NCBI RefSeq assembly: GCF_029338355.1
Contig: NZ_CP119802.1
Span: 248,001-312,000 of the forward strand
From: Halosegnis marinus
GTDB lineage: Archaea > Halobacteriota > Halobacteria > Halobacteriales > Haloarculaceae
Direction: 5' to 3'
DNA length: 64,000 bases
Shown here: positions 3,126 through 6,268 of the stretch, in pieces
How the letters are laid out: each line of letters begins with the position of its first letter
Numbering within the stretch: position 1 is the stretch's first letter
The notes under the pieces: generated by a model
What the model saw: the letters and a program-made list of their open reading frames with translations, nothing else
Database searches by the model: none
What the model was told of the DNA's origin: nothing
Translations under genes and position numbers: made by a program

Positions 3126-3258
3126 GTCCGGTATTACGCGTCGGCCCGGATAATCCCGTCGTCGCGCGACTAAACAGCCCTTTATTGATGTGTCCCGGGT
3201 GACTGTAGTTCGATACTCCCCGCCGAACGGCTTTATTTACACCACATTTGTGACAAAA

Positions 3259-3267
3259 ACTTTATAA
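3259..3267 (+). promoter_or_regulatory. TATA box for the small membrane peptide gene
   Basis: CTTTATAAC lies about 30 bases before ATG 3294 in an AT-rich stretch (3181-3300). This is the spacing expected for a leaderless haloarchaeal transcript. Confidence 0.6.
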
Positions 3268-3293
3268 CAACGCGGGCCATCCGGTAGGGTGTA

Positions 3294-3431
3294 ATGTCCG
3301 ATGCAAGCTCGGTTTCGGAGTTCGTTGCCCAGCACCCGAAGATGGCCGGCGCCCTGTTCACGATGATGCTGCTGCTCACGCAGGCGGGCGGCGTCATGGC
3401 GGGGAACAGCAACCCGATCGTCGGGCCGTGA
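3294..3431 (+). CDS. 45-residue single-helix membrane peptide facing a CHAT protease gene
   Basis: The reading frame is MSDASSVSEFVAQHPKMAGA followed by a hydrophobic run (about residues 18-36, Met/Leu-rich) and the short tail NSNPIVGP. It could be one membrane-spanning helix, a holin-like peptide, or an uncleaved signal sequence. It has its own TATA box and a leaderless start. I recall very similar tiny haloarchaeal proteins (DUF7503-type, uncertain). The gene ends 12 bases from the stop of the convergent CHAT protein gene and nothing else lies between, which suggests a functional pair. Confidence 0.65.
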   Translation: MSDASSVSEFVAQHPKMAGALFTMMLLLTQAGGVMAGNSNPIVGP

Positions 3432-3443
3432 AATCGAACGCGG

Positions 3444-5528
3444 TCAGAAACTGAACTCGTCGCTCCACGCGAAGTCGTGGCCTATCTGGAGAGGGATGAC
3501 TTCGAGCGAAAGGAAATCGCGGAGTGACTGCTTATCGACGGTGAAATCCGCAACAGGGCTACCGATGAGGTAGTGTTCGTCGTTTCCTTCGAAGTTCGGT
3601 CTGGTCATCGTGCCGACGCCTAAACGTCCGGCGTAGTACGAGCGATAGAACACGTCGTACGTGTCCTCGTCTGTCTGGTTCACCTCGAGCAGGTTCGGAA
3701 TCAGACTCTCGGCGTGCGCGATATCCATGTTCCCGTCGCCGATGACGATGTACTGATTGCCGACGATGGAGCGTTCGGCCGCGATGTTCAGTCCAGCGCG
3801 CAGCGGGAACCCCCGGTTCAGGAGCCGCGACATCGCCTTCCCGACCCGGATCGCGCCGCTGTTGATGACCTCGTCGAGGGTGACGATGCCGCCGACGGCG
3901 CCCTTCTCGATGAGCGCCATCCCCTGCTCGTACGAGGTGCAGGCGTTGAGGAAGAAGGTGTCCATGGCGACGGCGTCGAGCTCGCGCACGTCGAGCATCC
4001 CGTCGGAACAGCGGAACCCCTCGCGCTCGATGTGGCCGATGTAGTGGAAGTAGTCGACCTCGGACTCGAGGACGATGGCGAGCCGGTCGGTCGTGAGGTC
4101 CTCGTAGAACGTCACCTCGAAGGGGAGTTCCTCGCGCGACCCGTAGACGCCGCGGGCGGTCTCGTGTTCGTCGAGCATCTCGTCGTCGTTGCAGACGACG
4201 ACGATCTCCACGTCCCCTTCCTTCTCGCCGCGGTCGAGGCGGTTGCGGAACGCCTGCGGGAGCGCCTTCGAGGCGCCGACCGGCGCGCCGGGGCCGACCC
4301 ACGCCTGTTCGATGGAGTCGGCGCTCTCGGGTTCGATGACCGGGGGCGACCACGTCTCCTCGTCGCGGGCGCGCCCGGCCCGCGAGCGCGTCGCGACCCC
4401 GCCGGCGGCCCGGGTACGCGTGAACTCCTCGATGGCGGCCAGCTGGCTCCGGTTCCGCGTCGGCTCGCGGTCGGCCGGCGTGCGCACGACGGCGAGGTCG
4501 TCCACGAGGAACGGGAGCGTCTCGACGCTGTCCGCGTCGGGCGTGACGTGGGCGGTGAGCTTCCACTGCGGGACGTACGCCGAGACCGCGTCGAACGGCA
4601 CGTCGAGGTAGCGCGCCAGCCGGTCGGTCGGGTCGGCGTCGTACAGGGCGGCGAAGTCGAGGTCGAGCCCGTCCTCCACGGCGGCGCGCTCGTGGAGCGG
4701 CACGTCGTAGATGCCCTCAGTGCGCGTCAGACAGTCGAGGAGGAACGTCTGCTTGAGCACGCGCTCGACCTCCCGCTCGAAGCCGTAGCGGCTGTCGAGC
4801 ACGTGTTCGAAGCCGTCGTCGCCGACCAGCCGCGGGACCGGCCCGGGTCGCACGTCGGCGCCGAGGTAGTAGGCCAGCGGTGCGACGACGAACACCGGGC
4901 CGAGTTCCGGGGGCACCTCCACGTGGAGCCCCGAGTCGGGCGTCGTCAGCATCTCGGGGACGTGGAGTTCCTCGCCGACGGCGAGTTCGGGCGGGTGGCC
5001 CCGTAGGGTGGGGAACGACCGCTCGGGCGAGAGCGTCTTCAGCGCCGAGGGGAGCGCGGAGACGGCCCGCATCAGGTCGTGCGGGTCGTCGGTCGTCGTC
5101 ACCGTCGTCGCCGGCCGCTCGTGGTACGAGCGCGCGCCGACGAGCATCTCCGTGGGGTCGTCGGCCGTTATCGTCATCGTGACCGCATCGAGCGCGACGG
5201 TCATCGGTCCCGAGAGCGCCACGTAGAGCTTGACGGGGCCGGACACCTCGAAGACGTACTCGCCGGCCGGGAAGCGCCGCTCGGAGAAGTGTTCGAAGTC
5301 GGCGAGGACGTCGCCGTCGCCGTCGCGCAACAGCGCGCCCGGCACCTCCTCGACCCTGAGCCGGCCCGCGGTGACCGTCACCGCGCCGTCGAGCGGATAC
5401 GCGAACTCGCGGGTCGCCGGCTCGGGGGAGACCGCCGTGTCCGTCCGGAGCCGGCACTGCCGCTGTTCGATCCGGTCCTCGATGACGAGACCGGTGTCGT
5501 CCTCGGCCGCACGGATTGATACCGTCAT
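3444..5528 (-). CDS. CHAT-domain (caspase-like) protein
   Basis: A 694-residue soluble protein with no signal peptide or membrane helix. Residues 1 to about 330 are beta-rich and unrecognised; about 330-400 is a charged linker. The C-terminal region is a CHAT caspase-like fold: VDYFHYIGH places the catalytic His at about 499, and FLNACTSYEQG places the catalytic Cys at about 530. CHAT enzymes cut proteins, and in bacteria they act in immune or death pathways (TPR-CHAT of type III-E CRISPR, gasdermin-linked CHAT). This one has no TPR repeats. It lies 71 bases downstream of the MBL-like gene on the same strand and converges on a 45-residue membrane peptide. The last roughly 300 bases are visibly lower in G+C than the middle. 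Confidence 0.8.
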   Translation of the reverse strand: MTVSIRAAEDDTGLVIEDRIEQRQCRLRTDTAVSPEPATREFAYPLDGAVTVTAGRLRVEEVPGALLRDGDGDVLADFEHFSERRFPAGEYVFEVSGPVKLYVALSGPMTVALDAVTMTITADDPTEMLVGARSYHERPATTVTTTDDPHDLMRAVSALPSALKTLSPERSFPTLRGHPPELAVGEELHVPEMLTTPDSGLHVEVPPELGPVFVVAPLAYYLGADVRPGPVPRLVGDDGFEHVLDSRYGFEREVERVLKQTFLLDCLTRTEGIYDVPLHERAAVEDGLDLDFAALYDADPTDRLARYLDVPFDAVSAYVPQWKLTAHVTPDADSVETLPFLVDDLAVVRTPADREPTRNRSQLAAIEEFTRTRAAGGVATRSRAGRARDEETWSPPVIEPESADSIEQAWVGPGAPVGASKALPQAFRNRLDRGEKEGDVEIVVVCNDDEMLDEHETARGVYGSREELPFEVTFYEDLTTDRLAIVLESEVDYFHYIGHIEREGFRCSDGMLDVRELDAVAMDTFFLNACTSYEQGMALIEKGAVGGIVTLDEVINSGAIRVGKAMSRLLNRGFPLRAGLNIAAERSIVGNQYIVIGDGNMDIAHAESLIPNLLEVNQTDEDTYDVFYRSYYAGRLGVGTMTRPNFEGNDEHYLIGSPVADFTVDKQSLRDFLSLEVIPLQIGHDFAWSDEFSF

Positions 5529-5599: not shown

Positions 5600-6268
5600 T
5601 CAGGAGACGAGCCCCTTCAGCGCGTTGAGATAGGCGGTCGGCGCGCGCTTTCGCGAGGTGGCGACGGCCTCCCGTATCGCGTCGCTCGCGTCGTCGAGGA
5701 CGCCCGCGCCGTGGCCGACGAGCACGCGCTCGGCGTCGAACTCCCGGAGCCGCTTCGGGGGGAACAGCCGCAGCATCGGGTGGACCCCGAGCCGCTCGTC
5801 GCCCGCGAGGAAGAACGGCGCCGTGCCGACCGCCTCGGGGACGAGCAGGGTTCCGGCCTCGGAATCGAACAGCGCCGCCTCCTGCCAGAAGCCGTTGTCC
5901 ATCAGCCGCTCGACGGAGTAGGCCGTGTCCGCGAGCGCGTCGCCGAGCGGTTCGGTCTCCGTGTCGGCGTCGATGTCCGTCATCCACGCGGGCGCGTACA
6001 CGTCCACGTCGTGGCGCTCGGCGAACGTCACGGCGTCGCGGCCGTGGCGGTCGAGGAGGAGGACGACGCCCGCCACCTCGCCGAGGTCGCCGTATATCCC
6101 CTCGACGCCGTCGGCGTCCACGGGGTCCACGAGCCACACGCCCTCGTCGGTCGCGAGCGCGTGGGAGGCCCGCTGCATCCCCTCGTCTGGGTAGGCCAGC
6201 CAGCCGACGCCCCCGTCGAAGCGGTCTATCTCGCGCGGTTCGCCGGACCCCGAGCCCTTGATCGGCAT
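5600..6268 (-). CDS. Metallo-beta-lactamase-fold-like protein lacking the metal motif
   Basis: A 222-residue protein. Strand order and the pieces GVWLVDPVDADG, VVLLLDRHGRDAVTFAERHD and VLVGHGAGV resemble an MBL-fold hydrolase. The HxHxDH zinc motif is replaced by a DRHGRDA-type sequence, so only one His and one Asp remain and normal di-metal chemistry is unlikely. The final GHG element, typical of the fold, is kept. It may be a catalytically altered or non-enzymatic haloarchaeal paralogue. It is followed by a TTTTT run (about 5584-5588, bottom strand) that could end transcription before the CHAT gene. Confidence 0.55.
   Translation of the reverse strand: MPIKGSGSGEPREIDRFDGGVGWLAYPDEGMQRASHALATDEGVWLVDPVDADGVEGIYGDLGEVAGVVLLLDRHGRDAVTFAERHDVDVYAPAWMTDIDADTETEPLGDALADTAYSVERLMDNGFWQEAALFDSEAGTLLVPEAVGTAPFFLAGDERLGVHPMLRLFPPKRLREFDAERVLVGHGAGVLDDASDAIREAVATSRKRAPTAYLNALKGLVS

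Follow-up and report, generated by a model that had tools for sequence, protein, structure and literature searches.

A candidate Gly-Pro tail code connecting haloarchaeal CHAT-family proteases with their microprotein partners

The convergent pairing of a CHAT-family protease gene with a gene for a 45-residue microprotein, noticed in Halosegnis marinus, is confirmed and proves nearly universal among haloarchaea. The partner's one durable feature is a C-terminal Gly-Pro (GP) end, and for this reason the GP tail is the part most likely to contact the protease. We tentatively consider the pair to be a protease-plus-partner module, in which the microprotein would dock on the protease through its GP tail and serve as regulatory ligand or anchor, and give this reading nearly an even chance.

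The pair is located in a 64-kb stretch of H. marinus DNA, which is referred to here as the window (Table 1). An earlier note on this DNA described a 694-aa CHAT protein and a 45-aa peptide encoded convergently with a 12-nt gap, and both reading frames are present at those positions. The promoter ascribed there to the peptide gene is also borne out: a TATA-like TTTATAA lies about 27-33 nt 5' of the peptide ATG at this locus, and a BRE/TATA-like stretch (AAAAWTTTATAT) about 27-35 nt before the peptide start is conserved in 98 upstream regions. Judging from the promoter-to-ATG distance, the peptide transcript is probably leaderless. The pair was also said to have no neighbour that explains it. 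This holds within the window, but elsewhere about half of the paired CHAT genes (51/108 in subfamily A, defined below) have DUF7504 (PF24336) as their immediate upstream gene, for instance at L055, L060, L083 and L104, and HalX response regulator genes are often located nearby downstream. DUF7504 is absent from the H. marinus locus. The 222-aa ORF located there upstream of the CHAT gene (5600-6268, minus strand) has no Pfam match and is unrelated to DUF7504; at about 21 related loci, where synteny is conserved, this ORF likewise precedes CHAT. The families that recur as neighbours include no CRISPR and no Cas7-11-like family, and PADLOC has no match for the CHAT-peptide pair.

Table 1. Features of the CHAT-microprotein locus (positions within the window)
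Feature	Position	Strand	Basis
BRE/TATA-like promoter GACAAAAACTTTATAAC	3252..3268	+	about 27-33 nt ahead of the peptide ATG
DUF7503 microprotein, 45 aa	3294..3431	+	Pfam PF24335, E = 3e-19
His-Pro-Lys motif, residues 14-16, start of the hydrophobic helix	3333..3341	+	peptide alignment
Hydrophobic helix, signal-peptide-like, residues 17-36	3342..3401	+	alignment profile
C-terminal Gly-Pro codons of the peptide	3423..3428	+	GP end in relatives
Convergent intergenic gap, 12 nt	3432..3443	.	between the peptide and CHAT stops
CHAT-family cysteine protease, 694 aa (predicted)	3444..5528	-	dyad, profile, predicted fold
Catalytic CHAT domain, residues ~435-605	3714..4226	-	structural match to SAVED-CHAT 8tl0
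Catalytic Cys530 codon	3939..3941	-	invariant, 137/137
Catalytic His499 codon	4032..4034	-	invariant, 137/137
Asp448 codon, candidate S1-pocket acid, directly after the first catalytic-domain strand	4185..4187	-	D 129, E 6 of 137
Tyr296 codon, candidate Gly-Pro tail recognition residue	4641..4643	-	127/127 partnered CHATs; putative role
N-terminal beta-sandwich, residues 1-133	5130..5528	-	separate AF2 model, pLDDT 91.9

By profile and predicted fold the 694-aa protein belongs to the CHAT family of clan CD, and it is predicted to be proteolytically active. It has no Pfam, NCBIfam or PADLOC match above cut-off and does not reach the Pfam CHAT profile PF12770, which is matched by 21 of 59 family members (best E = 7.7e-5). 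In the AlphaFold2 model (pLDDT 87.3, pTM 0.88) His499 follows strand 491-497 and Cys530 follows strand 522-528, which are the places expected in a caspase-like fold, behind strands 3 and 4 respectively. The earlier note had placed the dyad at about these residues and proposed its conservation among homologues as a check; both residues are invariant in all 137 aligned homologues. Structure comparison has found RgpB (Z 20.4, 2.9 Å over 241 residues, model residues 321-605) and separase (Z 18.5) as matches to the protease module, at 11-16% sequence identity, along with SAVED-CHAT 8tl0 (Z 18.4, 169 residues, 2.3 Å, residues 435-605, VIA-align) and Csx29 (Z 14.4). The beta-rich N-terminal region of 330 residues, which had been described as unrecognised, can be kept only in part: residues 1-133 alone are beta-rich, and the gingipain/separase-like protease module takes in residues 321-434. 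The beta-sandwich 1-133 has only noise-level similarity to PDB structures (GH31/GH2/YidC sandwiches, best Z 8.3), and PDB sequence searches gave nothing useful. Position 448, a candidate S1-pocket acid from what is generally known of clan CD, is Asp or Glu in 135 of the 137 homologues (D 129, E 6); by analogy with gingipains and metacaspases this suggests a preference for a basic P1 residue.

The microprotein has the architecture MSDASSVSEFVAQ-HPK-MAGALFTMMLLLTQAGGVMA-GNSNPIV-GP and is matched by Pfam DUF7503 (PF24335) at 68.8 bits, the gathering cut-off being 27 (E = 3e-19). Helical peptides of this kind share a common plan: [HN]-P-[RK], a hydrophobic stretch, QAG, A-x-A, an uncharged tail and the GP end. 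The P and R/K of the motif are present in all 96 aligned helical peptides, and the tail after the helix contains just 0.2% Asp/Glu and 1.2% Lys/Arg (92 peptides). GP forms the very C-terminus in 89 of 97 distinct helical peptides, the other eight ending without it. By the positive-inside rule this tail would be extracellular and so separated from the protease, which has no signal peptide. Membrane orientation matters here, since a tail on the outside could not reach a protease in the cytosol.

Adjacency in haloarchaeal genomes, which had been proposed as a check on the pairing, was found at all levels of sampling. Among 20 relatives, 14 of which have a match, each of the 16 DUF7503 matches adjoins a convergent CHAT match; a peptide-first sample, drawn from different genomes, yielded a convergent CHAT gene at 20 of 20 loci, with a gap of -17 to 80 nt, and such a gene is present at all 36 peptide loci examined. 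Starting from the protease, a helical peptide is located beside 95 of 108 subfamily-A CHATs, the subfamily being defined by a manually set score threshold (>=730) and the count covering those with enough downstream sequence. The commonest gaps in these 95 pairs are 0 nt (26) and -4 nt (15), with a range of -17 to 126 nt. The 13 CHATs lacking a helical peptide are mostly from Haloplanus, the others being L077 (peptide masked), L109 (displaced), L117 (replaced) and the second CHATs in tandem L141 and L146. At the two tandem loci a single peptide gene lies between two CHAT genes, convergent with the first and divergent from the second. A head-to-head arrangement of CHAT and GP partner is seen at L163. 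The pair arrangement is kept in several neighbourhoods and on plasmids.

At the genome scale, the CHAT family is present in 271 of 292 haloarchaeal genomes and DUF7503 in 250 of them; all 20 CHAT-less genomes that are listed by name are also without DUF7503 (21 are CHAT-less in all). The Fisher P value for co-occurrence (~1e-20) is descriptive, as the genomes are related and the unlisted 21st CHAT-less genome was assumed to be peptide-free; likewise, the pairing counts come from sequences of shared ancestry and are not independent. Outside Halobacteria, CHAT relatives were found in only four of 247 genomes drawn from the phylum, and all of them are distant. These relatives (G321, G330, G339, G348) contain parts of both halves of the protein and come from one non-haloarchaeal family of the phylum. 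The first scan of genome contigs with a single protein as query and a scan of viral contigs found no relative.

Haloplanus could be taken to have lost the peptide, but the strand opposite to CHAT carries tail repeats there, which rules out such a loss. A short helix-free leader is followed by a unit of 13 residues, for example YTADGNSGGISGP, in 2-13 copies; the unit ends with SGP and the last copy ends exactly at the stop codon. In DNA this is a 39-nt tandem repeat facing the Haloplanus CHATs at L167-L172, L079 and L097. In the L167 copies 12 of 14 variable sites are third codon positions, and the L170 partner contains no Lys or Arg at all. G312 (L131), a genome of the same GTDB genus, has a normal helical peptide and is a close neighbour of the repeat forms in tree order, so the repeat form is most simply read as derived.

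Other partners have diverged in other ways. The Halococcus morrhuae partner is helix-free and ends with YSGP; the partners in two g89 genomes (a genus) are divergent, carrying NPQ but still ending with GP; in further partners RPW replaces the helix-edge P-[R/K], or the motif is absent. In other CHAT clades the facing ORF also ends with GP, with little other similarity among the partners. Some of these are soluble (...RAKRVSTYGGP or ...DGSSSPYTGP), others are helices with tails of 20-50 residues, sometimes with a few residues beyond GP. Automatic helical-versus-soluble labels were unreliable and were not used; some partner labels were assigned manually. Two genomes of one genus (G159 and G202) have 12-13 CHAT-family matches each (loci L184-L185, L191-L192, L196-L197, L201-L202 and L204-L210), and many of these CHATs face their own long-tailed helical partner ending with GP or with GP and a few residues.

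Only 0.92% of all stop-to-stop segments in the CHAT loci end with GP. Every third base is found in the C-terminal Gly and Pro codons of the peptides, and each of the three stop codons is in use. As Gly, Pro and stop codons vary, codon usage indicates that the GP end is selected at the protein level; the same variety rules out GP as a DNA-level feature.

A candidate counterpart of the GP end on the protease side is Tyr296, which is present in 127 of 127 partnered CHATs and in 8 of 28 unpartnered ones. As it emerged post hoc from a scan of all alignment columns against the unpaired clade N, the P value attached to it is descriptive. Few columns are kept in GP-paired CHATs and not in clade N; Tyr296, Gly272 and Leu278 stand out. 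Among the CHATs outside that scan, the unpaired L147, L158, L187, L198, L199 and L210 also lack Tyr296, and eight others keep it. Since clade N is nested between paired clades (local support 0.99), the partner and Tyr296 were, most simply, lost together. A within-genome swap test for CHAT-partner coevolution was weakly positive (131/216). Instead of a GP partner, clade N loci (L148-L157, L162, L166, L174) mostly have a TbsP-type transcription regulator gene just downstream. The second CHAT paralogue of the source genome, L147 (G000:C1:2587509-2589452), has no GP partner, and a larger multi-helix membrane ORF overlaps its gene end by 4 nt.

We propose that the GP tail may dock close to Tyr296, in the half of the protease that is not catalytic. 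The microprotein would then regulate the protease as its ligand and, in most species, also anchor it to the membrane. The copy number of the tail, reached by clustering of helices or by the covalent tandem repeats of Haloplanus, could set the valency, and the upstream DUF7504 product, where present (about half of the loci), may deliver the signal. We infer the Tyr296 contact, the docking, the sign of the regulation and the biological output of this module. In a broader form, haloarchaeal CHAT proteases would read a C-terminal Gly-Pro code, each having its own microprotein (membrane helix, soluble peptide or tandem repeat) with a GP tail that docks close to Tyr296 and tunes the protease through the number of its copies; this wider proposal is possible, though the chances lean against it.

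An accessory role (ligand, anchor or regulator) is favoured over the other protein-level roles because, in the genomes searched, CHAT genes persist without the partner and the partner was not found without CHAT. The microprotein could instead be a dedicated substrate or effector whose GP tail is recognised and whose cleavage elsewhere frees an active fragment. The CHAT active sites never degenerate (137/137), a partner dedicated to a CHAT protease is in most cases its substrate (established for Csx29-Csx30 and SAVED-CHAT), and the invariant P-[R/K] at the helix edge of helical peptides, together with Asp/Glu448 (135/137), would fit a basic P1 as in gingipains. We nevertheless consider this role rather unlikely, as the partners share neither a cleavage site nor an effector part, given the NPQ and RPW variants, the helix-free partners and the L170 partner devoid of Lys and Arg, and clade N retains an intact protease without a GP partner. 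The same variants and partners rule out universal cleavage after P-[R/K]. The death-effector role suggested in the earlier note by analogy with gasdermins fares worse: the partners in Haloplanus and Halococcus morrhuae, and several partners of paralogues, have no helix, and yet the C-terminal Gly-Pro remains. A pore built from the helix thus fails as a general mechanism, and a pore-forming effector is ruled out as the general role.

The peptide may also be seen as the precursor of a short secreted signal, with a mature peptide of 8-10 residues ending with GP. Its signal-like helix, which closes on an A-x-A-like sequence, and the uncharged tail after it would suit such a precursor, and so would the Haloplanus tandem repeats with their near-perfect protein conservation, which resemble multicopy pheromone precursors; however, the Haloplanus and several other partners have no signal-like segment, and no transporter or receptor is consistently adjacent to the pair among the recurrent neighbour families, so we find secretion improbable. 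Restraint of a toxic protease by an inhibitor or antitoxin has a precedent in separase-securin, where a clan CD protease is inhibited, and the conserved peptide promoter suggests constant expression. That the partner is an essential inhibitor is quite improbable, considering that intact-dyad CHATs of clade N and other paralogues persist with no GP partner, though Tyr296 is mostly lost there. Finally, the tail-to-tail layout with a gap of 0 or -4 in 41 of 95 pairs might reflect antisense or terminator coupling without any interaction of the proteins. With GP selected on the protein under free codon choice, gaps varying from -17 to 126 nt and the head-to-head L163, hardly any weight can be given to this explanation.

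Pfam assigns no function either to DUF7503, the helical partner, or to DUF7504, and neither is mentioned in the full-text papers searched (open-licence literature). Searches of the same literature for CHAT, caspase and the DUF names retrieved no description of a CHAT-microprotein system. The CHAT fold and the Pfam DUF were already known; the CHAT-DUF7503 link, the Gly-Pro rule, the Haloplanus repeats and the association with Tyr296 were not found in the literature searched. The pairing ties two unexplained haloarchaeal families into one near-core system. If the tail docks as proposed, this would be a simple protease-ligand code that outlasts the replacement of everything else in the ligand, and the Haloplanus repeats constitute a natural experiment on what the ligand can discard. 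DUF7503 is present in the genetic model Haloferax volcanii, which makes the system directly testable. The family also provides candidate caspase-fold proteases for Archaea, where caspase-like activity has been reported in H. volcanii in an abstract that cites a lack of gene homologues (PMC3615174). That activity is aspartate-specific, in contrast to the basic preference suggested by the acidic residue 448, and we do not claim identity.

Among known systems, gingipains RgpB/Kgp (C25) and separase (C50) are the best structural matches of the protease module and share its His/Cys dyad, but the haloarchaeal protein differs from them in its N-terminal half and in having a microprotein partner. Gingipains also stand apart as virulence proteases that are secreted. 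Bacterial gasdermin systems, the analogy drawn in the earlier note, similarly place a caspase-fold protease beside a membrane protein gene, and the gasdermins are cleaved by proteases; the haloarchaeal partner, in contrast, has 45 residues with one helix or none and no gasdermin-sized pore domain. The type III CRISPR CHATs (Csx29/TPR-CHAT and SAVED-CHAT) have a CHAT catalytic domain and a gene paired with a dedicated partner, as in Craspase (type III-E), where Csx29 cleaves Csx30. Unlike them, the haloarchaeal CHAT carries no TPR or SAVED region, has a beta-sandwich at the N-terminus and no Cas7-11-like recurrent neighbour, and its partner is a convergently encoded 45-aa microprotein with a GP tail.
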